A model generated the notes under the pieces. It saw only the letters and a program-made list of their open reading frames with translations, was not told the origin of the DNA and did not search any database. From an uncultured Alphaproteobacteria bacterium (GTDB lineage Bacteria > Pseudomonadota > Alphaproteobacteria > HIMB59), in contig CABXVZ010000006.1 in the NCBI GenBank assembly GCA_902515765.1, positions 1 through 51,536 of the forward strand: a stretch of DNA of 51,536 nt, read 5' to 3'. Below, in pieces: positions 37,722 to 51,536 of this stretch. A program made the position numbers and the translations under genes. Within the stretch, counting starts at the first letter, position 1. Every line of letters begins with the position of its first letter.

Positions 37722-40301
37722 ATGATGAATTTTGATAAATATACTAATAGTTCAAAAAAAATTATTAATGCTGCTCAAAACTTAGCATTAGGAAAAAAAC
37801 ATCAAAAAATTACACCTCTGCACGTATTTGCAGAGCTTTTAACCAGCAATCATGAGATCATTATTAAAATTTTTGAAAACAAAGATCTCATATCTTTAAA
37901 AAAAGAAATTAATAATTTGTTATCTAAAGAACAAATTAGTTCCAATAATTCTGGACAGATTTTTGCAGATCCTAAATTAATTCAATTATTTGAAAAAGCA
38001 GAAAAAATAGCCTCCAGTCAAAAAGATAGCTACGTATCTATAGACTCTCTTCTAATAAGTACAATTGAATCAGACTCGCTCATTGGCTCTTCTTTAAAAA
38101 AAATTTCATTAACCCTGCCACATATTAAAAAAAAAGTTTTAGAATTTAGAAAAAATGGAAAGTCTGACAGTGAAAGCTCTGATGACAACTTTAATGCTTT
38201 AGAAAAGTATACTATCAATGTCACTCAAAAAGCTCAAAATAGAGAATTAGATCCAGTTATTGGTCGTGATGAAGAAATAAGAAGAACAATTCAAGTTTTA
38301 TCAAGAAGAACCAAAAATAATCCTATTCTTATTGGAGATCCTGGAGTTGGAAAAACAGCTTTAATTGAGGGCTTGGCTCAAAGAATAATCAATAAGGATA
38401 TTCCTAAATCCTTAGAGAATAAATCAATTCGTATATTAGATTTGGGACTTCTTCTTGCTGGTGCTAAATATAGAGGAGAATTTGAGGAAAGACTCCAAAA
38501 CGTCTTAAAAGAAATTCATAGAGAAAATGGTTCCATCATTCTATTCATTGATGAAATTCATACTTTAATTGGTGCTGGTAAATCAGATGGTGCCATGGAT
38601 GCCTCCAATATGTTAAAGCCTGCTCTAGCTAGAGGTGAATTACATTGTGTTGGAGCAACTACCTTAGATGAGTATAAAAAATACTTTGAAAAAGATGCCG
38701 CTCTTACAAGGCGCTTTCAGCCTGTATTTATTAATGAACCTAATACCACTGATGCTGTTGCCATCCTTAGGGGCTTAAAAGAAAAATATGAAATACATCA
38801 TGGTATTAGAATAAGTGATGAAGCAATTTTAGCTTCTGTACAACTTTCTGATAGATATATTACTGATCGTTTTCTACCCGATAAGGCTATTGATTTAATG
38901 GATGAAGCGGCAAGTAAAGTAAAAATGGAGATAGATAGTAAACCCGAAGAGATAGACCAACTTGATAGAGAGTTAATTCGACTTCAAATGGAAAAAAATG
39001 TTTTATCAAAAGAAAATGATCAAGATTTACAAAAAAACGAAACAATCAATAAACAAATTGTTGATTTAGAAAATAAGCTTAATTCTCTTAATTCTACTTG
39101 GGAAGCTGAAAAAAAAATTTTAGATACTAAAAGAAATCTCAATGAAAGAATTGATCAAGCTAAAGAAGATCTTGAAACTGCTCAAAGATCTGGAGATCTA
39201 ACAAAGGCTAGTGAGATCATGTACGGGCTACTTCCAAGTCTAGAAAAGGAATATGAGGAGCTTAATAAAAAAGAAAAATCTACAATCATTAATGAAGTTA
39301 TTAACGCGGAGGATATAGCGGGAGTAGTTTCTAAATGGACAGGTATCCCTCTTGAAAAACTAACAGGTGGAGAAAATGATAAGCTGGTAAATATCGAGAA
39401 ACTCTTAGAAAAAAGAGTTATTGGGCAAAAAGATGCCATTGAAAAGGTTTCAAAAGCCATCAAGATTTCTAAAGCTGGTCTTCAAGATCCAGATAAACCC
39501 TTAGGCTCCTTTCTATTTTTAGGACCAACAGGTGTCGGAAAAACAGAACTTTCGAAGGCACTTGCGGAATATGTGTTTGATAATGAAAAACAAATACTTC
39601 GAATGGACATGTCAGAGTATATGGAAAAGCATTCCGTCAGTAAACTGATTGGCTCACCTCCAGGTTATGTTGGCTACGACGATGGAGGAAAGCTTACAGA
39701 CTCTGTAAGAAGACGTCCTTATCAGGTAATACTATTTGATGAGATAGAAAAAGCTCACCCAGATGTCTTCAATATTCTTTTACAAATATTAGATGATGGA
39801 AGGTTAACTGACTCCAAAGGAAAGATTGTTAATTTCAAAAATACCCTAATAATCATGACTTCTAATATAGGTTCTCAAATTCCTATTGATGAAAACTTTG
39901 ACTACGCAACTAAAAAGAATTTAGCTCTAGAAGAATTAAAAAATCATTTCCGCTTGGAGTTTCTTAATAGAATTGATGACATAATTTTATTTAATAAATT
40001 ATCAAAAGAAAATATTAGAAATATTTTAAAGAACCAAATTGAGATGATTGAAAAAAGAATTATTTCCAAAGGTATATCTATAGGATTTACTGATGAAGCT
40101 ATAGATTTTCTGATAGAAAAAGGTTTTGATCCCTTATTTGGTGCTAGACCACTGAAAAGACTACTCCAAGATGAAGTATTAAACCCTCTCTCAGAGGTCA
40201 TATTAGATGTTGGAGATAATATCCAAGATAAAGTTATCTTTTCAAAAGATAAGTTTGGCTTAATCATAGCTAATAAAAACCTTAAAGTATTAAACTCATA
40301 A
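37722..40301 (+). CDS. clpB: ATP-dependent disaggregase ClpB
   Basis: ClpB is the Hsp104-type AAA+ chaperone that rescues aggregated proteins together with DnaK. The N-domain covers about 1-145, NBD1 has Walker A GDPGVGKT and [14 protein letters not shown], a long middle coiled coil covers about 405-520, and NBD2 has [10 protein letters not shown] and [16 protein letters not shown] second ATG one codon downstream (37725) is an equally good start. Length 859 is standard. The start lies 22 bases from the divergent Lys-rich ORF. Confidence 0.97.
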
Positions 40302-40336
40302 CTTTTAACTTAAGATAAATTTTGTATAATTATTTT

Positions 40337-40429
40337 ATGAAGTGGTTATTCCTTTTAGGGGCTTTTTTAATAGTTGCATTTGTTCTCTACTTATCTGTAA
40401 TGACTATAAGAAAAATTAGAAAAAAGTAG
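40337..40429 (+). CDS. Possible 30-residue membrane peptide
   Basis: An ATG-to-TAG frame after clpB encodes one membrane segment (LFLLGAFLIVAFVLYLSVM) followed by a basic tail (RKIRKK), a positive-inside profile. It ends three bases before the TTG of the next membrane gene. Too short to prove; position and composition are the only support. Confidence 0.35.
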   Translation: MKWLFLLGAFLIVAFVLYLSVMTIRKIRKK

Positions 40430-40432
40430 TTA

Positions 40433-40846
40433 TTGGACTTATTTTTTTCAGACACTTTATATCTCACAAAGATATTCTTAGTTTCTTCAATATTAACCAT
40501 TATCTTTTTCTTACTTCTATTAACTAGAAAAATTTATAAAAAAAAATTATCTAATACAAATCTATCAATTTATTCTTCCCTATTTTTATTAATAATTACT
40601 TTATCAGGCTTATTAATAGTTAATTTTATTGGAAAGTTTACATATGTTTTATTTATAGCTGGAGTAATTACAGTGATTTATTCAGAAATCAGTTTTTTAT
40701 TAGGTAAATATTTTTTTCCTAATTTTGTTAGTGAGAATGTGTCTAAGGAAATTATTTATATGTTTAGTTTTATTGTCTTCATAAATGCAGGATATTTTAC
40801 ATTTATGTTGATACTTGATATTTTGAAAGCTCAAACAGTTCTCTAA
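40433..40846 (+). CDS. Integral membrane protein, four segments, unknown
   Basis: No family recognised. The frame starts with TTG (the first ATG is far inside), giving 137 residues with four hydrophobic segments near 9-30, 43-66, 69-92 and 104-132. It follows the 30-residue peptide by three bases and precedes a 59-residue basic protein by four, so the three probably form one transcript with clpB. Confidence 0.6.
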   Translation: MDLFFSDTLYLTKIFLVSSILTIIFFLLLLTRKIYKKKLSNTNLSIYSSLFLLIITLSGLLIVNFIGKFTYVLFIAGVITVIYSEISFLLGKYFFPNFVSENVSKEIIYMFSFIVFINAGYFTFMLILDILKAQTVL

Positions 40847-40850
40847 TCTA

Positions 40851-41030
40851 ATGAAAACAATTACTCTAGAAGTTGGAAATACCTCTTGGTGGAAAAATCT
40901 AAAATATAGAAGAGAAGCAGCACAGGAATTAAGAAAAATGAGAGTAAATAATAAAAATATTAAACTAATTAAAAAGTACAGTATTGAAGGATCTAATACG
41001 ATTATCTACGGAGACTACAAAATTAGATAG
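40851..41030 (+). CDS. Small basic protein, 59 residues
   Basis: ATG 40851 to TAG 41030. The product is soluble and very basic (KYRREAAQELRKMRVNNKN in the middle), with Trp-Trp near residue 13 and a C-terminal strand-like part (SNTIIYGDYKIR). Unknown family. The charge suggests nucleic acid or ribosome contact, which is only inference. Confidence 0.5.
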   Translation: MKTITLEVGNTSWWKNLKYRREAAQELRKMRVNNKNIKLIKKYSIEGSNTIIYGDYKIR

Positions 41031-41074
41031 TTTTCTAACTATATAATTTAATAAAAACAAGTAATATAAGTTTC

Positions 41075-41524
41075 ATGAAAATATTTAAATTTTTCATAAT
41101 ATTTTTTTTAACAATTAGTTTTAATATAAATGCAGGTCCATTTACTGATGAGTTTTCTCGATGCATTGTTACTAAAACAACATCTCAAGAAAAAACAGAT
41201 TTAGTTAAATGGATTTATGTCACTATATCCTTTCATCCTCAATTATCTGATATGTCAAACTTATCATCAGAAGATGTCGAGATGGTTAATATTAGAGTTG
41301 CTGACTACATGACAAATGTGTTTGCCTATAAATGCAATAAAGAATTAATAGAAGCAATAAAATATGAAGGTGAGAACAGCGTAGTTACTGCATTTGAGTT
41401 ATTAGGAGAAATAGCCATTTCAGAAATTATGGTTGATGAAGGAGTTTCGATTGCTAGTGAGTTTTTCACACAATATCTAGATGAGAGTGTCATAGCTGAA
41501 GCTCTAAGTGAAGCTTATAACTAA
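41075..41524 (+). CDS. Secreted protein of unknown function, 149 residues
   Basis: The N-terminus is a clear Sec signal peptide (about 1-20, cleavage near INAG). The mature part is helical, acidic, with two Cys (about 31 and 89) that could form a disulfide. No family recognised. It ends 18 bases before the convergent ATP-grasp stop. Confidence 0.7.
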   Translation: MKIFKFFIIFFLTISFNINAGPFTDEFSRCIVTKTTSQEKTDLVKWIYVTISFHPQLSDMSNLSSEDVEMVNIRVADYMTNVFAYKCNKELIEAIKYEGENSVVTAFELLGEIAISEIMVDEGVSIASEFFTQYLDESVIAEALSEAYN

Positions 41525-41542
41525 AACAATTATAATTGAATT

Positions 41543-42988
41543 TTAATCATCAACTATCATAGTATCCTTAGAGCCACCACCCTGTGAACTATTTACTATA
41601 GTACTGCCTTTTTTTAAAGCTACTCTAGTTAAACCTCCCATTGTTACATATGTCTCTTTTCCAGAAAGTATAAATGGCCTTAAATCTTGATGTCTAGGTT
41701 CAATATTATTTCCTTGCAAGGTTGGAGTAGTTGATAAAATTTCTAAAGGTTGGGCTATATAATTTCTTGGATTATGCAAAATTTTTCTAATATAAGTTTC
41801 TTTTTCTAACTTAGTGGCTTTAGGTCCTACTAAAATTCCATAACCACCAGATCCATCTGCAGGCTTGACAATCATTTTGGAAATATTTTTTATTACATAA
41901 TCTCTTTGAATTTTATCATTACAAAGAAAAGTCTCTACTTGATTTAATTTGGGATGCTCATCTAGATAATACTTAATAATTTTAGGGATATATGAATAAA
42001 TAACTTTATCATCAGCTACACCACTCCCTGGTGCATTTAACAAACCAATATTTCCTTTTCGAAAAGACTTATATAAACCAGCTACACCTAACAAAGATCC
42101 TTTGTAAAAAGTTTTGGGATCTAGAAAAGTATCGTCAATTCTTCTGTAGATACAATCTACCCTTAAGCCTCCTTTTACTGTTTTGACAAAAACTTTATCT
42201 TTTTCGACATAAAGATCTTTGCCCTCTACTAAGGCAATGCCCATTTGTTGAGCAAGAAATGAGTGCTCAAAATATGCAGAATTATAAACTCCAGGAGTTA
42301 AAACAACCATTGTAGGATTAGTTTTCTTATAGGGTATAGCGTCTAACATACAGTGGTATAATCTGTTACAATATTGATTAATAGATGAAACTCTATATCT
42401 AGTGAATAATTCAGGAAAAACCTCTCCCATAACCATTCTGTTTTCTAACATATAAGAAACACCTGAAGGAACACGAAGATTGTCTTCTAATACCAAAAAC
42501 TCCCCTTTAATATTTCTAATTAAGTCAATCCCAGATATATGAGACCAAATTTTTCTTTTAGGTTTATAACCCTCACACTGCTTGAGATAATTTTGTGAAT
42601 TAAAAACTAGCTCACGAGGAATTACATTGTCTTTAAATATCTTTTTTTCATTATAAACATCGTTTATAAAAAAATTTAAAGCCTTACATCTTTGAACTAA
42701 ACCCAGTTTTACTTTATTCCATTGGGATTTTAATATTATTCTTGGAATTATATCTAAGGGCCATTTTTTCTCTTCTGCAGCTTTCTTATCAGCAGAATAG
42801 ACTTTAAAATTAATACCTCTTGAGCTAATAGTGCTTTGACAATTACTTTCAATTCTTTCCAAATCTTTACTAGAATAATTATTAAGTATTTTTGAAATTA
42901 TCTTTGCTTCTCTTCTTAAGCTTTTATCAGAGGTGAGGTATTCGTCATAACTTCTTTGAGAGTCATATTTATTCCAGTTAATGGGCAC
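41543..42988 (-). CDS. Circularly permuted ATP-grasp type 2 protein
   Basis: This 481-residue protein belongs to the CP_ATPgrasp (DUF404/DUF407) family, ATP-dependent ligases that probably form a peptide-like bond on an unknown substrate. Typical parts are SRGINFKVYS, the block LVLEDNLRVPSGVSYMLENR (about 168-187), GLLNAPGSGVADDK and the nucleotide-binding MIVKPADGSGGYGI. Elsewhere these genes occur with an alpha-E protein, a transglutaminase-like protease and the Anbu peptidase. Here Anbu is divergent, 105 bases away, and the other two are not in the window. Confidence 0.9.
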   Translation of the reverse strand: MPINWNKYDSQRSYDEYLTSDKSLRREAKIISKILNNYSSKDLERIESNCQSTISSRGINFKVYSADKKAAEEKKWPLDIIPRIILKSQWNKVKLGLVQRCKALNFFINDVYNEKKIFKDNVIPRELVFNSQNYLKQCEGYKPKRKIWSHISGIDLIRNIKGEFLVLEDNLRVPSGVSYMLENRMVMGEVFPELFTRYRVSSINQYCNRLYHCMLDAIPYKKTNPTMVVLTPGVYNSAYFEHSFLAQQMGIALVEGKDLYVEKDKVFVKTVKGGLRVDCIYRRIDDTFLDPKTFYKGSLLGVAGLYKSFRKGNIGLLNAPGSGVADDKVIYSYIPKIIKYYLDEHPKLNQVETFLCNDKIQRDYVIKNISKMIVKPADGSGGYGILVGPKATKLEKETYIRKILHNPRNYIAQPLEILSTTPTLQGNNIEPRHQDLRPFILSGKETYVTMGGLTRVALKKGSTIVNSSQGGGSKDTMIVDD

Positions 42989-43093
42989 TAATTAAATTTA
43001 CTATAAATACATAAATTTCATTATGCATAGATTAGATTGCTAATATGTAAATATTCGTTTGTATTTTTTAAAAATACGCTATTTAATCCTAAT

Positions 43094-43819
43094 ATGACTT
43101 ACTGTGTTGGAATTAAAGTAAATGATGGAATGGTTTTTGCTTCAGATAGAAGAACAAATGCTGGTTTAGATAATTTCAACTCCTACACTAAAATGTATGT
43201 ACATAAAGGAGTCGATAGAAATATAGTAATTTTAACCTCTGGTAATTTATCAACTTCTCAGGCTGTTTTTAATTCCATAGGTAAAGATTTAGAAGATCCT
43301 ACAAATGGAAATAATCTCAATAACCTTTATAACATGAATGAAATTGCAAAATACATTGGAAGATTAACTGTAATGCATTCCTCTCCTGATGGTTTTAATC
43401 AAGAGATGGTTGAATTAGGATCTACTTTTATTTTAGGTGGTCATGTTCAAGGTCAAGAGCAAGAACTATATCTCATATATCCTCAGGGAAATTTTATCAA
43501 AACAAGTGAGACTAAGCCTTATTTGGTAATTGGAGAAATAAAGTATGGTAAACCAATCTTAGATAGGGTCGTAAAGTCAGAAACAGATTTAGGTGATGCA
43601 ACTCGTTGCGCCTTAATAAGCATGGATAGCACTATGAAAGCAGATTTATCAGTTGGTCCCCCCATAGATGTATTAGTTTATAAAAATAGCTTATCAAAAG
43701 TAGTCTATCTTCAATCTCTTGAGGTAGATAATCCAGATTATCAATATATTTCTAAACAGTGGGAAAAGGGAATTTTTGAAATTTTTAAATCTTTTGATCG
43801 TTTTAATTGGGAAGATTAA
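43094..43819 (+). CDS. Anbu (BPH-type) proteasome-like peptidase subunit
   Basis: This is an Ntn-hydrolase of the Anbu family, the bacterial proteasome-beta-like protein. The start at 43094 gives MTYCVGIKVNDGMVFASDRRTNAG (MTYCVGIK, then FASDRRTNAG); removal of Met would expose Thr as the N-terminal nucleophile, as the family requires. An upstream in-frame ATG (43037) would bury this Thr and is rejected. Length 241 fits. It is divergent from the ATP-grasp gene, supporting a functional pair. Confidence 0.9.
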   Translation: MTYCVGIKVNDGMVFASDRRTNAGLDNFNSYTKMYVHKGVDRNIVILTSGNLSTSQAVFNSIGKDLEDPTNGNNLNNLYNMNEIAKYIGRLTVMHSSPDGFNQEMVELGSTFILGGHVQGQEQELYLIYPQGNFIKTSETKPYLVIGEIKYGKPILDRVVKSETDLGDATRCALISMDSTMKADLSVGPPIDVLVYKNSLSKVVYLQSLEVDNPDYQYISKQWEKGIFEIFKSFDRFNWED

Positions 43820-43821
43820 AA

Positions 43822-43980
43822 ATGGAGTCCTCTCCTTTTATTACTAATTTAGCAAGTATTGCTGTCATTAGCCTAGCTATATTTTCATTTTATTTGATGA
43901 TAAGTAGAAAAGGGAAATATATCGATATAGTTTTTGGAATGATTTTAGCAGTTATAATTATTTCAAAAATATTGAATTGA
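43822..43980 (+). CDS. Small membrane protein, 52 residues
   Basis: ATG 43822, two bases after the Anbu stop, to TGA 43980. Two hydrophobic segments (about 10-27 and 35-50) flank a basic loop (SRKGKY). Unknown family; the tight spacing suggests cotranscription with Anbu. Confidence 0.5.
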   Translation: MESSPFITNLASIAVISLAIFSFYLMISRKGKYIDIVFGMILAVIIISKILN

Positions 43981-43993
43981 ATTTAAAAATTAT

Positions 43994-44173
43994 ATGAAAG
44001 CTGAAATTATATTTCCTATAGTCTACTTAGTTTGCTTACTATTTATAATTGGACCAAGGTTTTTAGACTCAAATTCATCTTTAAAGCAAATATTAAGCAA
44101 TTTAAGTATTTGGGCATTGATTGTAATTTTGATAGGTCTCGGCTATCAAGGGTATAATTATTATTTGTTGTAA
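43994..44173 (+). CDS. Small membrane protein, 59 residues
   Basis: ATG 43994 to TAA 44173. Two hydrophobic segments (about 5-20 and 36-53), the second ending GLGYQGYNYYLL. Thirteen bases after the preceding small membrane protein. Unknown family; probably part of the same transcript. Confidence 0.5.
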   Translation: MKAEIIFPIVYLVCLLFIIGPRFLDSNSSLKQILSNLSIWALIVILIGLGYQGYNYYLL

Positions 44174-44208
44174 ATTAATCTTAATTGATTAGGTTTTAGC
44201 TTTTAAAA

Positions 44209-45138
44209 ATGAGCGAAATTACATACACAGATTACAATTCAACTATTGAGTCATGGCCTCAATCAAAGTATCCCATTAATAATTTGGAAAATTTACTTGG
44301 TTCCTTTTCCAAGGCTCTAAAAGAAATTTACTCTTCTCCTGAAATTGAAAATAAACAAGCAAATCAGGAAACATATAACTCTATATATAATAAGGTAATG
44401 CTAAATCCAATATTTGACAGTCATCCAATAGGATTTGTATGGAGAGATAAGGAAAGTGAATTTTTATCTGACATTTCCTCTGCTATTAGCTTTGCCCATC
44501 ATATTTTTGAAACGATTGAAACTAAAAATGCTTATTTAATTTCACTTGCTGTTGCATTTAAAAAATCAGCTCCCAAGAATCTATCTGGTGATGTCTTGGA
44601 CTCAGCCTCAGAATTAATATATGAAGCTATTTTTAATATTGAGAATTCAAATCAACAAAATTTAAATCTTGAAAATACTAAAGATGACTACTCTTATTTA
44701 GCTGACGGGCAAGCATTAGCATTTCAGATCCAATATCATAGATGGATGATAATTAATAAGTCGATCCTTCCTGAGACAAGCTATATGAGAAATAGATTTA
44801 TCAATATTGTTATTAGGAAAAATTTTCCAAAGCATACCCCTAATCCTGAAAATAAGACAGAGACTAGCTATGAAGAGTCTCGTTCAAAGTTAAAAGATGA
44901 AATTACCCAACATTTGAAATTTGATAAATCAGAGTTACCAAGTGAAGTTATAGAAAAGTGGATCAATTCCTTTATTAATAATGTGATGCTTGTCTACTAT
45001 GGTTTTTATAAATGGGATAAACTAAGAGGAGATTTCTATAGAGTTATTGATTTAGAAAAATCTATATTTGGTGAAAAAATCCCTGACCAATTTGAAGAAA
45101 ATATTAAAGAATTTTCTAAATTTATTGATTTATCTTAA
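44209..45138 (+). CDS. Hypothetical protein, 309 residues
   Basis: No family recognised. The protein is cytosolic-looking and mainly helical, with Trp/Tyr-rich ends. It does not have the N-terminal pattern of the alpha-E protein that often accompanies Anbu and ATP-grasp. It follows the Anbu-small membrane protein string on the same strand with a 35-base gap. Confidence 0.72.
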   Translation: MSEITYTDYNSTIESWPQSKYPINNLENLLGSFSKALKEIYSSPEIENKQANQETYNSIYNKVMLNPIFDSHPIGFVWRDKESEFLSDISSAISFAHHIFETIETKNAYLISLAVAFKKSAPKNLSGDVLDSASELIYEAIFNIENSNQQNLNLENTKDDYSYLADGQALAFQIQYHRWMIINKSILPETSYMRNRFINIVIRKNFPKHTPNPENKTETSYEESRSKLKDEITQHLKFDKSELPSEVIEKWINSFINNVMLVYYGFYKWDKLRGDFYRVIDLEKSIFGEKIPDQFEENIKEFSKFIDLS

Positions 45139-45146
45139 TTTTTAAT

Positions 45147-45881
45147 TTAATTAGCTAAATTTATAAATATATCTCCCATACCCGATATTAATTCATCTTC
45201 TTTAGTAGAATTTCTCACTTTACATTGCTTTCCAGTAATAGAGTGGTGATTAACAGCAAGAGTATCATTATTGCTACAACTTCTAGGACTATGTAGAAAA
45301 CCTATTACCATATTATCATCAACACTATAAACCTGATCTTTATTCATATCTGTTCCTTTGCAGAAATATTCTCTGTTAATTTCTAATGGAAAGTCATCTT
45401 TAGAACAGGGATTTTTAATAGTTAGCACGGTAAATTCCTTTTTAACCCCCTTAAAACTATGAGATATCTCCATTGTGTTAGCATATTTCATGGAGTCGCA
45501 GGAACAAGGCCAACAACAAACATAAACATCTCCGCAGACTTTATTATTAGTCATATCTTCATTAAGACTTAATAAAAAAGGTTGTGAACCAGGTCTAATT
45601 AGTGAACCTGACACGGGACAATATCTTTTATTATATTCTACAAATTCATCGAACTCTAAATCTTGTTCTATTAAAAATTTAAAGAATTTAGGTCCAGCTG
45701 CATTTCTATTACCATCGGGAAATATATTATCCCATTTTTCAGCAAGTTTTTCGTAATAATATGTGTCTTTCTCTAAATCAATTTCATTGGATTGAATTGC
45801 ATTTGTATAAAATGAAGAGAGAAATAAAAACACCAAAAATGTAAAGAATTTAAGCCTATAAATAGTGAATATTGCGAGCAT
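45147..45881 (-). CDS. Secreted Cys-rich protein with CCWPCSCD motif
   Basis: The 244-residue protein has an N-terminal signal or anchor (about 9-28, ending near YTNA) and about twelve Cys, with a dense CVCxWPCSC-like cluster near 124-132 (VCCWPCSCD), plus RYCPVSG and KNPCSKDD. This suggests a disulfide-stabilised or metal-binding envelope protein. I do not recognise a family. It is divergent from the CRTAC1-like gene, 58 bases apart. Confidence 0.7.
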   Translation of the reverse strand: MLAIFTIYRLKFFTFLVFLFLSSFYTNAIQSNEIDLEKDTYYYEKLAEKWDNIFPDGNRNAAGPKFFKFLIEQDLEFDEFVEYNKRYCPVSGSLIRPGSQPFLLSLNEDMTNNKVCGDVYVCCWPCSCDSMKYANTMEISHSFKGVKKEFTVLTIKNPCSKDDFPLEINREYFCKGTDMNKDQVYSVDDNMVIGFLHSPRSCSNNDTLAVNHHSITGKQCKVRNSTKEDELISGMGDIFINLAN

Positions 45882-45939
45882 ATTTTGTAATTACATATAA
45901 AAAATAAATCTAGATCATATTTTTAAAAGTAATAAAATT

Positions 45940-47376
45940 ATGAGAAAAACATTAATTTTTTATCTAACAATTTTTATTTATTACACAATAAATTCTATGG
46001 CTAATGAAAATTTTTTTACTGATATAAGCAATCTACTGCCAGATCAAGACGACAGGCTAAGCTATGGAGTAGCTGTTACAGACTTTAACAGAGATGGAAA
46101 AGATGAATTTATAGTCACGGGTTTTGGATATGAAAATTTATCTTTATCTTTTGAAAATGGTAAAATTACAAAAACTATCAATAATAAGCTTTTCGCTGAT
46201 AAAACAAGATCTACAATAGGAGTAGCTGCATGTGATTTAAATCAAGATGGCTATGAAGAAATATATTTTCTCAACACAGATACATATAGTGGTCAAAAAC
46301 AATATTCAGATAGATTGCTTAATTTCAATGAAGAAAAAATTGAAGATATATTTGAAAAAGAAATCAACCAAAATGATTTAAATCTCACTGCAGGGAGATC
46401 AGTTGTTTGTGTTGATAGAGATGGTAAAGGTAATTATGGAATTTATGTTGCTAACTATGGAGGACCAACAAGATTTTATGAATTCCTAGAAAACCGAATC
46501 GTTGATTTAGCAACTAGCTTGGGTCTAGATAAAATTACTGGTGGTAGATCCGTAATTGCTGGGCATATTTTATCTGACCAAATAGATATCTTTGCAGCAA
46601 ATGAAAGAGGTCCTAATTTTTTATATAAAAATAGTAAAGGATCTTTCACTGAGTTAGCCGAAACACTAAAAATTCAAGATACTTATCAAAATGGTCGTGG
46701 AACTACACTGTCTGATGTTCTTTATAGAGGGAGGCTTGATATAATTAATGGAAACTGGCAAGGAGATCACAGGGTGTACGTTTATGATAAGGATAAATAT
46801 ATGGATATAGCTACACCACCTTTTAGTATTCCTTCAAAAATTAGGACAGTTATATCTGCAGACTTTGATAATGATGGGTATGATGAAGTTTTTATAAATA
46901 ATATTGGTGAACCCAATAAGCTTTTCAAAATTACAGAATATGGAAACTTTGAAGAAATATCTCTTGAAGCTGCTTTAGAAAAAAATGGACTTGGTACAGG
47001 TGCTGCTGTAGCAGATATAGATAATGATGGAATATTAGAATTGTTAATCGCACATGGTGAGTCAGGTCCACAACCCTTATCCTTATTTAAAAATCAAAGT
47101 TCTGCAAATAGAAATTTTTTAAGAGTAAGGCCTATTAATGTAAATGGTGCTCCTGCTAGAGGTGCAACTGTTACTTTATTTAGCAACCTAAGAACTCACT
47201 CAAAAACTATAGATGCAGGTTCAGGTTACTTATGTCAAATGGAACCTGTAGCTCACTATGGTATAAGAGACAATGAAAGTGATTTTAAAATTGAAATTAA
47301 ATGGACCAACGGAGATGTTAAAACATTAGTAATTGATAATCTTAGTGAAACAATAGTAGTTCAGCAGGAAATATGA
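45940..47376 (+). CDS. CRTAC1-like FG-GAP/VCBS repeat protein with ASPIC/UnbV C-terminal domain
   Basis: This secreted 478-residue protein has a signal peptide (about 1-21), then FG-GAP/VCBS calcium-binding repeats forming a probable beta-propeller: DFNRDGKDEF (about 48-57), DLNQDGYEEIYF, DFDNDGYDEVFI and DIDNDGILELLI. The C-terminal ASPIC_UnbV domain has APARGATVTLF, GSGYLCQMEP and KWTNGDVKTL. Animal CRTAC1 has the same layout; bacterial roles are unclear, perhaps surface or matrix binding. Its stop overlaps the start of the fasciclin-like gene (ATGA), suggesting a two-protein surface unit. Confidence 0.88.
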   Translation: MRKTLIFYLTIFIYYTINSMANENFFTDISNLLPDQDDRLSYGVAVTDFNRDGKDEFIVTGFGYENLSLSFENGKITKTINNKLFADKTRSTIGVAACDLNQDGYEEIYFLNTDTYSGQKQYSDRLLNFNEEKIEDIFEKEINQNDLNLTAGRSVVCVDRDGKGNYGIYVANYGGPTRFYEFLENRIVDLATSLGLDKITGGRSVIAGHILSDQIDIFAANERGPNFLYKNSKGSFTELAETLKIQDTYQNGRGTTLSDVLYRGRLDIINGNWQGDHRVYVYDKDKYMDIATPPFSIPSKIRTVISADFDNDGYDEVFINNIGEPNKLFKITEYGNFEEISLEAALEKNGLGTGAAVADIDNDGILELLIAHGESGPQPLSLFKNQSSANRNFLRVRPINVNGAPARGATVTLFSNLRTHSKTIDAGSGYLCQMEPVAHYGIRDNESDFKIEIKWTNGDVKTLVIDNLSETIVVQQEI

Positions 47377-47838
47377 AATTAATTTTTTTTATACTTATAT
47401 TTTTTTTACAAATAACTTAATATCTAATTGTAAAGATTATTATAATTCCATAATTGAGAATTCTAGACTCACAAAACTAACTGAATATTTAAATATATCT
47501 GACCTTAAGGAAGAAATATTAGCACTTGAAGACATTTCCATTTTTGCCCCCTCAGATGATGCATTTGCACCTCTAAGTGCAAAGACATATTATGGATATC
47601 TAAGAGAAGACAATAAAAATGAGTTAAGAGATCTTATAAATTTTCATTTTGTAGAGGGAAATTCTATACAGAAAATATTACTGACTCAATTAATACCATT
47701 TCTCTCAATGGCTTAGATATAGAGATAAAGAAAGTTAATGGTATTTTATATTTTAATGGAGCTGAAGTGGATGAATCAGATATGTCTTTTAGAAATGGAT
47801 ACATTCATTTAATTTATAGAGTGTTAATACCTAAATAA
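47373..47838 (+). pseudogene. Fasciclin (FAS1) domain protein with two frameshifts
   Basis: Three frames together encode one secreted FAS1 protein: a signal start MKLIFFILIFF, then LTEYLNISDLKEEI, ISIFAPSDDAFAPL (FAS1 H1 block) and DLINFHFVEG, then TDSINTISLNGLDIEIKK and GYIHLIYRVLIPK to the stop. The first break lies in an eight-T run (47400-47407), the second in GGGAAATT near 47657; each is mended by one added base. Either a real pseudogene, a phase-variable gene, or two homopolymer sequencing errors. It overlaps the CRTAC1-like stop. Confidence 0.8.
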
Positions 47839-47918
47839 TTTGCTATTTTTCTGGCTATTATAGAATTTATGAAAATATTTATTCAAGATAGCTAATTTAA
47901 CAATCTAAAAGGAATTTA

Positions 47919-49520
47919 ATGAAAAATACTACCATATCCTCTTTTGCTAATTCTCTAGTGAAAGACTATATTCCAAAAGAAGGCCCCTCTTTTTCTTTAT
48001 TTAGAATTGAAATTTTAGCAGGTCTTACAGTAGCTTTAGCTTTGGTACCAGAGGCAATAGCTTTTGCTTTTGTGGCAGGAGTTACTCCTTTGTCAGGACT
48101 CTATGCTGCTTTTTTAGTGGGTTTAATTACAGCCGTAATAGGTGGTCGACCTGGAATGATATCAGGAGCTACCGGTGCGTTAGCTGTTGTGATGGTTTCT
48201 TTAGTTGCTGATCATGGTGCTCAATATTTATTTGCTACAGTCGTGCTAATGGGAATTTTACAAATATTATCTGGGATTTTTCGATTAGGTAAATTTATAA
48301 GAATGGTCCCCCAACCTGTTATGTTGGGTTTTGTTAATGGACTTGCAATTGTAATTGGTATTTCCCAGCTGAATCAATTTAAAACAACTAACTCTATGGG
48401 AGAGTCCGTTTGGATGTCTGGTAACACTTTATTATACTCTTACTGTATCGTTGTTATAACAATGATCGTAATTTGGATATTACCTAAATTTTCAAAAGTA
48501 TTTCCCTCCACACTTGTTGCTATTTTATTAAGCACAGGTTTGGTACTAAGCTTTGATATCCCCATCCCTAGAGTTGGTGATTTAGCAAGTGTGGCTGGTG
48601 GACTGCCCTCATTTTCTATACCTATGGTTCCTTTAAATCTAGATACCCTTATTATTATATTTCCTTATGCCATTATTTTGGCAGCTATAGGATTGATAGA
48701 GAGTTTATTAACTCTGAATTTAGTGGGAGAGATTACTAATAAGAAGGGTGGCGCTAGTAAAGAATGTTTAGCACAAGGTATCTCTAATACTGTAACTGGT
48801 TTTTTTGGTGGTATGGGTGGATGTGCCATGATTGGTCAATCCATGATTAATGTTAAATCAGGTGGAAGAACAAGAATGTCTAGTGTATCCGCAGCTTTAT
48901 TTTTATTAGTTTTTATTTTATTTACATCTTCTTATATTGAATTAATTCCTATCGCAGCTTTAGTTGGAGTAATGTTTATGGTTGTTCTGGGGACTTTTGC
49001 TTGGAACTCATTGAAATTATTATTTGTTGTACCAAAATCAGATGCTTTAGTAATTGTACTAGTTACAATTGTAACTGTTTTAGAAGACCTAGCAATTGCA
49101 GTTGTAGTAGGAGTAATTGTATCGGCACTCGTATTTGCTTGGAAATCAGCATCTAGAATTAAGGCTTTAGAAAGACCTTCTTCAACAGAAAGTGGAGCTA
49201 AAGTTTATGAAATAGAAGGACCACTTTTTTTTAGTTCTACAAATAGTTTTTTAGAAATCTTTAAATACTCTAATGACCCTGAAGTCGTCATAATTGATTT
49301 TGCAAGATCAAGAGTAATTGACCAGTCTGCCCTAAAAGCTATTGAAGATATTGCTAATAGATATTCTAGCTTAGGTAAAAAAGTAAAACTGAGACACCTA
49401 ACTCGTGACTGTCATAGATTGCTCTCTAAAACAGGTCAGTTAATGGTAGAAAGTGACGATGATCCTGATTATAGCGTAGCTGTTGACTACGAGGTTAAAA
49501 TTGGAATTTTTGGAAAGTAA
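47919..49520 (+). CDS. SulP family anion transporter with STAS domain
   Basis: SulP/SLC26 proteins carry sulfate, bicarbonate or other anions across the inner membrane. The 533-residue protein has PSFSLFRIEILAGLTVALALVPEA (split: EILAGLTVAL and PEAIAFAFVAGV), GGRPGMISGATGALAVV (about 76-92), about 12-14 membrane segments, and a C-terminal STAS domain (about 420-530) with IIDFARSRVIDQSALKAIEDI. Substrate cannot be read; marine relatives are often proposed as bicarbonate importers. A clear AAGGAATTT lies upstream of the ATG. Confidence 0.92.
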   Translation: MKNTTISSFANSLVKDYIPKEGPSFSLFRIEILAGLTVALALVPEAIAFAFVAGVTPLSGLYAAFLVGLITAVIGGRPGMISGATGALAVVMVSLVADHGAQYLFATVVLMGILQILSGIFRLGKFIRMVPQPVMLGFVNGLAIVIGISQLNQFKTTNSMGESVWMSGNTLLYSYCIVVITMIVIWILPKFSKVFPSTLVAILLSTGLVLSFDIPIPRVGDLASVAGGLPSFSIPMVPLNLDTLIIIFPYAIILAAIGLIESLLTLNLVGEITNKKGGASKECLAQGISNTVTGFFGGMGGCAMIGQSMINVKSGGRTRMSSVSAALFLLVFILFTSSYIELIPIAALVGVMFMVVLGTFAWNSLKLLFVVPKSDALVIVLVTIVTVLEDLAIAVVVGVIVSALVFAWKSASRIKALERPSSTESGAKVYEIEGPLFFSSTNSFLEIFKYSNDPEVVIIDFARSRVIDQSALKAIEDIANRYSSLGKKVKLRHLTRDCHRLLSKTGQLMVESDDDPDYSVAVDYEVKIGIFGK

Positions 49521-49570
49521 ATAATCCTAAAAAACATAGATTTTATTTGTAATAAGTTTAGCTTAAGCGC

Positions 49571-49606
49571 GGGTGAGGAAATGAGTTGGTCCGATTTTCC
49601 TTACCC
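49571..49606 (+). terminator. Strong hairpin downstream of the SulP gene
   Basis: GGGTGAGGAAA (49571-49581) pairs with TTTCCTTACCC (49596-49606) as an 11-pair stem with one G-U and a 14-base loop. GCTTAAGCGC, itself a near-palindrome, precedes it, and a T run (49615-49620) follows about ten bases later. Likely a terminator or a small structured RNA; the distance to the T run makes it atypical. This stretch is much richer in GC than its surroundings. Confidence 0.5.
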
Positions 49607-49669
49607 TATCTATAGTTTTTCTAATATTTCTAGAAAAATATCTAAAATTATTTTAAGATAACTTTTTAT

Positions 49670-50152
49670 ATGAGAAGAATTTTTCTTATAACTCTTATTA
49701 TAATATTTTCAAAACTTAACTTTTTATACTCAAAACCTAATGACCAAATAATTCACGATGCCCTTGGTTTTATGCTAGGTGGAGATAATGGATGGGATGG
49801 AGTTGCTACAGAGTATCAAATAGATGGATGTATAATTACTTACGTACAGAACTTTATGGGTAATAATTTAATTGCAATATACGATTTTGATAAAGCCTTG
49901 TGGAATTCTGCAGCAAGTCAAATTGGTGATGACGGAAGAGATTATTTTATATTAAATGGGAATGAAGGACTACAAGAGGTATATGCTTACGGCCCAGAGG
50001 GAGAAGATGTATCAGATGGTTTATGGGCGTGGGGCATACAAGCAGGACCGGGGTCATTGATGACCTTTCCTATTTTAGTAGATATTTCAAGGTTTGAAAA
50101 TGCCATGTACGATCTTATGGATGAATGTCCAGGAATAAAATCAAAATATTGA
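49670..50152 (+). CDS. Secreted protein of unknown function, 160 residues
   Basis: A signal peptide (about 1-21) is followed by an acidic mature domain rich in Gly/Asp with FMLGGDNGWDGVATEYQIDG and GWDG-like Trp residues; two Cys (near 51 and 156) could pair. It ends MYDLMDECPGIKSKY. No family recognised. Composition is normal for the window. Confidence 0.7.
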   Translation: MRRIFLITLIIIFSKLNFLYSKPNDQIIHDALGFMLGGDNGWDGVATEYQIDGCIITYVQNFMGNNLIAIYDFDKALWNSAASQIGDDGRDYFILNGNEGLQEVYAYGPEGEDVSDGLWAWGIQAGPGSLMTFPILVDISRFENAMYDLMDECPGIKSKY

Positions 50153-50165
50153 TATTAAAAATAAT

Positions 50166-50357
50166 TTATTTTTTAATAAATTTATCCCACACTTTCTCAT
50201 AAACAACATAAATAAAAAGACTAATTACTATAGTAACTAAAGAAAAACTAAGAGAATTAATCCAATTTCCAAACCAAATAAAAGATAAAATAGATATCCA
50301 AATAAATCCAATAGCTTGCCAAATAATTGATTTGTAAAATAACTTTTTTGTATTCAA
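50166..50357 (-). CDS. DUF2061-like small membrane protein
   Basis: The 63-residue protein has two membrane segments (about 9-27 and 32-51) and the end VVYEKVWDKFIKK, resembling the YxHExxW end of DUF2061 proteins; the N-terminal KLFYKSIIWQAIGF fits KtxxWR of the family. Function unknown. A purine-rich GGAGGAAAT lies upstream of the ATG on the minus strand. Confidence 0.75.
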   Translation of the reverse strand: MNTKKLFYKSIIWQAIGFIWISILSFIWFGNWINSLSFSLVTIVISLFIYVVYEKVWDKFIKK

Positions 50358-50723
50358 ACAATTTCCTCCTTTAAAAAATTTAAAGTTAATAAAAAAAAAT
50401 TTAAAAAAGGATAGTTATACTGATGAGGCGTAATGAATTTTAATGAACAAATGGCAATTCCAATTAGCCCAAAAATTAAATATAATTTTTTTGTTCATTT
50501 TTTTAATTTATATTGTAAACAAAGAAAGTCTATCGAATAAGAGTTAATACTTGAGAGTTAGGAAATATCTCTATTAATATACGCTATGCCGCCGTAGCTC
50601 AGTGGAAGAGAACACCCTTGGTAGATGAAAGCTTTAAAGACCTAGTAAATAAAGCTTACTTAATTTTTTTGCAGACTACTACTAAACTAGTACCTGTATA
50701 GATAATATTATAAGCTTTAATTA
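50358..50723. other. Gene-poor stretch containing a tRNA fragment
   Basis: No convincing gene is seen. A 35-codon frame starts at 50433 but has no supporting features. The stretch contains the tRNA-Thr fragment at 50588-50623, followed by an AT-rich spacer with a loose inverted repeat AAAGCTTTA/TAAAGCTTA (50628-50656), and the start region of the last gene. Confidence 0.6.
50588..50623 (+). pseudogene. Truncated tRNA-Thr (GGT), 5' half only
   Basis: The 36 bases match the 5' half of a bacterial tRNA-Thr: acceptor strand GCCGCCG, TA, D arm GCTC-AGTGGAA-GAGA (one mismatch), CACCC and the anticodon loop TTGGTA with anticodon GGT. The 3' half (GGGTG and the T arm) is absent; the sequence diverges inside the anticodon loop. 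Breakage exactly there resembles a tyrosine-recombinase crossover. Not a functional tRNA. Confidence 0.75.
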
Positions 50724-51536
50724 ATGAAAAAAATTTTAGGAATCGTGTTTCTGGGTTTATTGTGGTGCAATATTAGTCTTACAGATGAAAAGCCAGGCAG
50801 ATTCTTTGAAGACCAACCTGATGTGAAAGATGATTATCAAATACATTTTAACTATTTATTAGCTGCAGATAGTGAAGATCGCGAATGGGATATAAACGGC
50901 AGAATGGAAAAAATTCTTTTAAAAATGAATGAAGCTATGGCAAAAGCAACAGCCAAACATAAAAAAGGTGATAGTGTTGCAAGAAAATATAAATTTGATT
51001 ATAGAAAAGATGGTAAGCTAGATATTACATTTGTAAGAATAGATAAAAAATATAAAGAATTACACAAATGGGCAAATAATGACATTATTCCTTTCTTGAA
51101 CAAAAAAAAGGGAATGAATAATCCTAAAAAAATTTATTTTAATTACGCTGATATAAATAATATCGATGGTGGAGAAGCGGGCGTTGGTTATGGAACACTT
51201 TATTTGAGAAACAAAAGTGTAAAGACAAACGAAAGAAAATTGCTAATTACTTTGCATGAATTGCATCATACGCAAGGAGGAGGTTATAATTGTGTACCAG
51301 GAATGGCTAGTAATGGACATTATGCAAACCAAGAATCAAGAGTACAATTAAATTCTGGAAGAAAACTAGGGTCAGCATACGCTCATAAATTTAAAAACTG
51401 TCCTCAATTAATGGATACAGTATATTTAACTCCAACATCCAGCGAACCTTATGATCCATATGAAGTAAATTGTTTATTTAAAATAGGAAAATACAATCAT
51501 CCCAAAATTACAAAAATAATAGAAGAAATGAAGAAA
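50724..51536 (+). CDS. Secreted protein with HELHH zinc-protease-like motif, 3' end cut by window
   Basis: The frame runs from ATG 50724 to the window edge without a stop (271 codons). An N-terminal hydrophobic signal (about 1-18, ending near LLWCN) precedes a basic, Lys-rich domain. LLITLHELHHTQGGG near 179-193 contains HExxH, the zinc-binding motif of metallopeptidases, followed by a His-rich stretch GMASNGHYANQES. No known peptidase family is recognised and the third zinc ligand is not certain. It lies directly after the tRNA-Thr fragment, hence possibly carried on an accessory segment. Confidence 0.75.
   Translation, partial: MKKILGIVFLGLLWCNISLTDEKPGRFFEDQPDVKDDYQIHFNYLLAADSEDREWDINGRMEKILLKMNEAMAKATAKHKKGDSVARKYKFDYRKDGKLDITFVRIDKKYKELHKWANNDIIPFLNKKKGMNNPKKIYFNYADINNIDGGEAGVGYGTLYLRNKSVKTNERKLLITLHELHHTQGGGYNCVPGMASNGHYANQESRVQLNSGRKLGSAYAHKFKNCPQLMDTVYLTPTSSEPYDPYEVNCLFKIGKYNHPKITKIIEEMKK

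Follow-up and report, generated by a model that had tools for sequence, protein, structure and literature searches.

Introduction

Among the 3919 tRNA islands described for the island finder Islander, 159 have 5' fragments, candidates without an integrase or shorter than 2 kb being rejected (PMC4383910). In streamlined bacteria, islands of cassettes bordered by tRNA repeats are described from 'Ca. Actinomarinales' (PMC7771536) and, as fGI-2, from 'Ca. Methylopumilus' (PMC10872708), and the latter account also defines the tycheposon as an element of 4–200 kb that sits at a tRNA and has a tyrosine recombinase. Integration on the 5' side is reported for archaeal pTN3, which enters the 5' half of a tRNA and parts the gene from its original promoter (PMC5495485, PMC8371274), and for Sinorhizobium meliloti, in which 9 of 88 integrations lie at the 5' end and tRNA-Thr(GGU) is a hot spot (PMC11476347). 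The islands of HIMB59 are said to lack tRNAs at their borders (PMC10734472), and these we take to be other islands than the tRNA-Thr hotspot considered here. Titles and passages of the open-access literature yielded no description of a 5'-side cassette array of the kind reported below.

The window analysed here is the whole of contig C6 (51,536 bases) of an uncultured HIMB59 bacterium, from an assembly of 964,858 bases that is ~64% complete, and near its end lies half of a tRNA-Thr(GGT) gene. We consider it quite probable that this half tRNA is the scar of a small gene cassette inserted in the anticodon loop of tRNA-Thr(GGT).

Results

A displaced 5' half of tRNA-Thr(GGT)

Positions 50588–50623 (+) of the window correspond to positions 1–36 of the tRNA-Thr(GGT) of relatives by sequence match, alignment and shuffle control, with 34 of 36 bases identical (94%) and both substitutions in the D-arm region. 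This is the sole match to the 5' half of that tRNA in the genome. Over 37 positions the fragment has three mismatches, against 17 (forward) and 16 (reverse) for the runner-up site in the window and 14 for the best of 50 shuffled windows. The sequence leaves the tRNA inside the anticodon loop, after CACCC TTGGTA, so that the break at position 36 agrees with the original prediction of an end in the anticodon loop, as for the crossover of a tyrosine recombinase.

ARAGORN called no tRNA at 50588–50623 and a search of positions 50100–51536 against Rfam, with E up to 1, gave no match to a tRNA, another RNA or an intron, hence the 3' half is really absent at this place. The segment is confirmed as a real displaced 5' half of tRNA-Thr(GGT). 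Neither an intact tRNA-Thr(GGT) nor its 3' half was found in the genome, among whose 20 tRNAs above cut-off is Thr(TGT); this is weak evidence given the completeness of the assembly and the end of the contig at 51536. Since that end comes 913 bp after the fragment, a restored tRNA is not visible in this genome.

An empty site in the nearest relative and the inserted DNA

G031 is the nearest relative found, with 90–94% DNA identity near the locus, and aligns with the window at 93.4% over 47910–49601 and at 90.3% over 50163–50623 (463 bp). At the homologous spot it holds an intact tRNA-Thr(GGT) (L097:4188) with no insert, and the homology breaks off in the anticodon loop (tRNA position 36); the difference therefore reflects either an insertion in the lineage of the window or its loss from G031. 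A conserved neighbourhood with the same fragment, which would have spoken against the original prediction, was not seen, the gene of G031 being intact at the spot. The segment 50163–50587, which in G031 runs into the intact tRNA, is assigned to an older cassette because of its promoter class (below), and is probably the right end of that cassette. Further to the left, a gene at 47919–49520 (+; 533 aa, SulP-type transporter-like by eye) shows DNA homology to the left flanks of relatives, also lying left of tRNA-Thr(GGT) in G031, G023, G033, G032, G003 and AG-325-J07 (82–93% DNA identity).

Between these two stretches, the block 49643–50166 (ORF 49670–50152) adjoins tRNA-Thr in G032 (83%), lies about 6 kb from it in G001, G017, G020 and G036 and is missing at the corresponding spot of G031; we read it as a moved gene.

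Past 50623 no homology to the tRNA-Thr loci or cassettes of relatives was found, and the DNA from 50624 to 51536 is taken to be the left portion of the most recent cassette, truncated by the contig end. It has an ORF at 50724–51536 (+), open at the contig end after 271+ aa, which is predicted from homologs, motif and a signal peptide recognised by eye to encode a secreted protein with an HExxH motif (HELHH), a possible zinc metallopeptidase. The motif is retained in the ORFs at six of the seven homolog loci checked. Matches to the ORF occur in 11 of 23 same-order genomes (best 44%) and in none of 36 same-genus genomes, and the view that the gene after the fragment is island cargo is probably right, the gene being absent from all of these closer relatives. 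Pfam gave no match to it above cut-off and PADLOC none; a search of PDB returned a single chain (E 0.38), regarded as chance.

A group I intron would also leave such a junction, the fragment being then the 5' exon of a split tRNA-Thr(GGT) whose 3' exon lies beyond the contig. In other bacteria the pattern scan described below indeed found group I intron-like (RF00028-like) cores directly after TTGGT in tRNA-Thr(GGT) at six loci from several Alphaproteobacteria (L124, L128, L118, L115, L109 and L121), of which only L124 scores above the gathering score. Against this stand the lack of any such Rfam match both in the window and in six loci of cassette-bearing relatives, where an intact tRNA follows, the locus of G031 without insert, and the secreted-type protein encoded by the window ORF, and we regard the intron as extremely unlikely.

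Displaced copies in related genomes

Same-genus (G001–G036) and same-order (G037–G059) genomes were searched, and a pattern scan of 84,980 species genomes for 5' halves with a base other than G after them returned 33 stretches. The 5' 18-mer is matched with at most two mismatches in 31 of 36 same-genus relatives (the matches in G015 and G024 belong to another tRNA), and an intact tRNA-Thr(GGT) could be read in 29 of the 36. Displaced copies on the same strand lie upstream of the intact tRNA in G003 (2), G004 (2), G010 (1) and G033 (1); with the pattern scan, four more related single-cell genomes were added, AG-325-J07 (1), AG-470-L07 (1), AG-894-O04 (1) and AG-917-M17 (3, one of which came from the promoter comparison). 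We take the AG-named genomes to be marine single cells of uncultured Alphaproteobacteria. This makes 12 displaced copies in eight related single-cell genomes, or 13 in nine with the window; 11 of the 12 are 5' halves and one (G033) is a degraded whole tRNA. All eight relatives thus show the Islander signature, an intact tRNA with a same-orientation fragment on the proper side, which bears out the suggestion of an element that targets the 5' side. Fragments are stacked in G003 and G004 (two each) and in AG-917-M17 (three), where one copy leaves the tRNA sequence a few bases earlier, after 32 identical bases. An additional 5' half in G013, divergent with six mismatches and placed 406 bp ahead of the tRNA, is not counted among the 13. 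A second contig stretch of G013 is a second intact tRNA-Thr and, like those of G024 and G015, was left out of the promoter comparison and later counts.

At eight of the nine loci with displaced copies, all 101 spanning alignments to relatives whose gene is uninterrupted there break off at tRNA position 36–38; the junctions are independent, the multiple alignments per locus are not. This comparison used 23 relatives, excluding the cassette bearers G003, G004, G010 and G033 as well as G013 and G030. At the ninth locus, G033, homology continues through the degraded whole tRNA (16/16 alignments), as would fit an attP that still held a decayed 3' half.

The constancy of the junction bears on a chimera of assembly or amplification at 50623/50624, as occurs in single-cell genomes. 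The contig does stop 913 bp further on, and the insert has no arm sequence in common with any other cassette; but the break lies within two bases of the crossover at seven other loci, and the ORF that follows has homologs in same-order genomes, so that a chimera is very unlikely.

Outside these relatives, genomes of the Roseobacter group (L127, L130, L131, L133, L134 and L140) have a 5' tRNA-Thr(GGT)-like half ~130–145 bp ahead of the intact gene, followed there by a conserved 3' part that is not tRNA. In a Xanthobacteraceae MAG (L125:5259-7803), 2.5 kb with only small ORFs separate an upstream 5' tRNA-Thr(GGT) half from the intact gene, and this stretch is possibly the same kind of cassette.

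Replacement of the tRNA promoter

Sequences upstream of the tRNA and its copies sort into a native class A and the cassette classes B and C. Class A is found before the intact tRNA in 16 of the 29 relatives, and in none of these was a 5' fragment detected. At seven of nine cassette loci (AG-325-J07, AG-470-L07, AG-894-O04, AG-917-M17, G004, G010 and G033) it stands before the outermost displaced copy instead, and the promoter of the intact tRNA is of class B or C, though that of AG-325-J07 is a weak B only (0.65). Every cassette thus supplies its own promoter and 5' half, and the native promoter remains at the outermost fragment. The two remaining loci have an outermost copy of class B (G003) or class C (the window), and in our reading an older outer scar has been lost from them. 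G002 aligns to G003 as far as the outermost copy (91.3% over 1092 bp), where its own tRNA is intact. In the window the promoter-like stretch is at 50551–50587 (+) and matches class C at 0.90 against 0.52 for class A, with TTGAGA at 50551–50556 and an AT-rich -10 region at about 50572–50579 (hexamers by eye); elsewhere this promoter type is cassette-borne (G004, AG-894-O04). A remnant of the native promoter was sought in 40001–51536 and none was found. The intact tRNAs of G013, G030 and G032 suit no class well and that of G011 only weakly (0.71). Eight relatives (G002, G009, G011, G023, G030, G031, G032 and G035) have a non-native promoter with no fragment seen, either from eroded cassettes or from another cause.

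These promoters also bear on the other origin named in the original prediction, a deletion or inversion after ordinary 3'-side integration that left the 5' half alone. Elements on the 3' side do use tRNA-Thr(GGT), and in G011 (locus L077) the region around tRNA-Thr has an inverted orientation with respect to the flank genes of other relatives. A deletion, however, would not halt at an identical loop position in eight loci with different following DNA, nor would it equip the intact tRNA with a new promoter. With same-orientation copies upstream of an intact tRNA in eight other genomes, and because the insert supplies a new 5' half and promoter to that tRNA, this origin is not supported and we hold it to be highly improbable. 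Deletion or inversion, intron and chimera all rank below a cassette insertion.

Cassettes and their cargo

The 11 complete cassettes measure 1149–3354 bp, and six are under 2 kb. By Pfam their cargo includes an Mrr_cat_2/ResIII helicase (1011 aa), HNH with Polysacc_lyase, Acyl_transf_3 with SGNH, two weak Alginate_lyase matches, DLH-like and SnoaL proteins, and unknowns; in PADLOC the helicase comes close to type IIG and type I restriction enzymes, and a partial ORF of AG-917-M17 to GajB-type UvrD helicases. The cassettes appear modular: G003_2, G010_1 and AG-470-L07 have common left and right ends (the left read from printed sequences) and partly different cargo, and G010 and AG-470-L07 have ~1 kb in common (98.7%) with a lyase gene, their other genes differing. 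The insert in the window has no arm sequence in common with any other cassette. Tandem cassettes, partial tRNA repeats and contents that vary in close relatives, by which an additive island is recognised, are all found at this locus.

A signal-peptide-coding stretch of ~50–70 bp (MKTLLALLLLIPSLSWG-like) recurs ahead of different mature proteins in G004_2, G010_1, AG-470-L07, AG-894-O04, AG-917-M17_2 and AG-917-M17_3.

Recombinase, arm repeats and the 3' side

The phage integrase family PF00589 was found in none of 21 ORFs scanned out of the 22 in the 11 complete cassettes; the other, L07_1 (314 aa), is part of a stretch that shares 98.7% DNA identity with a scanned one. The family occurs in 58 of the 60 genomes searched, the present one included, in the genus mostly as proteins of 286 and 329 aa that are presumably XerC/D. 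Within the hotspot it was met only in G001, adjoining the tRNA on its 3' side (1e-19), and no integrase could be tied to the 5' cassettes. Seven displaced 3' halves lie downstream of the tRNA in six of 29 relatives (G001, G007, G012 (2), G022, G029 and G032), so that one anticodon loop serves both sides. On either side of this 7-bp loop, TTGGTAA, the anticodon stem CACCC/GGGTG forms an inverted repeat. Arm-like repeats common to both ends are clear in two of the 11 cassettes, G003_1 (21 bp) and G004_2 (37 bp); that of G004_1 was reached in 0 of 40 shuffles but is an A-rich stretch, and those of the other eight do not exceed shuffles.

In viral contigs, an exact 28-mer of the 5' half had seven matches, all within intact tRNAs, the class B promoter and one cassette arm had none, and neither a free or phage-borne attP nor relatives of the G001 integrase or of the window ORF were found.

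Elsewhere in the genome of the window, a displaced 3' half of tRNA-Lys(TTT) at G000:C3:43781-43839 (-) (L022) lies ~7.5 kb downstream of the intact tRNA-Lys(ttt) at C3:51302-51374 (-). It marks an ordinary 3'-side island, and PF00589 had no match on contig C3.

Discussion

The best reading of these data is that helper-dependent cassettes inserting on the 5' side build an additive island at tRNA-Thr(GGT), a hotspot used from two sides. A small circular cassette that bears both a promoter and the 5' half of a tRNA-Thr would recombine with the chromosomal tRNA-Thr(GGT) inside TTGGTAA. The old promoter and 5' half would thereby be displaced upstream, to 50588 in the window, with cargo DNA from 50624, and the intact tRNA, expected beyond the contig end, would consist of the promoter and 5' half of the cassette joined to the old 3' half. 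Cassettes would stack in this manner, as they do in relatives, with the newest adjoining the tRNA. Because the cassettes encode no recognisable recombinase, we propose that a tyrosine integrase acts in trans, most likely supplied by a phage or an integrase-bearing element that uses the same loop.

More tentatively, though less likely than not, the cassettes could form an integron-like system without a recombinase of its own, in which the site is a promoter with a tRNA 5' half and foreign integrases mobilise the cassettes. If so, every insertion re-promotes a tRNA gene that seems to be single-copy, and such systems may be widespread among streamlined bacteria of aquatic habitats. For streamlined ocean bacteria with few mobile elements this would be a route to gain single genes at a tRNA, such as those for polysaccharide-lyase-like proteins, a restriction-helicase and an acyltransferase, each gain also replacing the tRNA promoter. 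As a caution, island finders miss such insertions when they require an integrase or a length above 2 kb, and the insertions may also stay hidden where 5' repeats have been taken for 3' ends. The 20-mer given for Methylopumilus as the 'last 20 bp' of a tRNA agrees, when reverse-complemented, at 8–18 of 20 positions with the 5' ends of 15 tRNAs of the present genome, and as printed at 4–9 of 20 positions with their 3' ends; judged by this resemblance, it is probably a tRNA 5' end, and since its other strand resembles a 5' end, the Methylopumilus island may be of the same 5' kind.

Among described systems, the Islander islands with 5' fragments are alike in the displaced fragment upstream of a regenerated tRNA and in the anticodon-loop class of crossover, whereas the cassettes described here have no integrase, which Islander demands, and six of 11 are under 2 kb (PMC4383910). 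The islands of Actinomarinales and Methylopumilus resemble them in the accretion of small cassettes at a tRNA, leaving direct part-tRNA repeats, and in contents that vary between close relatives, although the passages describing those islands do not state a 5' side (PMC7771536, PMC10872708). With pTN3 they share an att site in the tRNA 5' half and a rebuilt tRNA cut off from its native promoter; pTN3, however, is a plasmid with its own integrase, and these are small, recombinase-free bacterial cassettes in tandem (PMC5495485, PMC8371274). The S. meliloti cases likewise have a 5'-end attR and a preserved tRNA, but are phage-related and of 3 kb and more, and the tRNA-Thr(GGU) sites there are at the 3' end (PMC11476347). 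At 1.1–3.4 kb and with no recombinase found, the cassettes fall outside the tycheposon as defined (PMC10872708); they also differ from group I introns, whose RF00028 core is lacking in the window and in six cassette-bearing loci. An integron cassette array is marked by attC sites and an IntI integrase; the repeated site here is a tRNA 5' half. As far as the published passages go, cassette islands directed to tRNAs have precedents, as have integrations on the 5' side, and the tandem 5' form at this locus, which is recombinase-free and swaps the promoter of the tRNA, is a variant of them.
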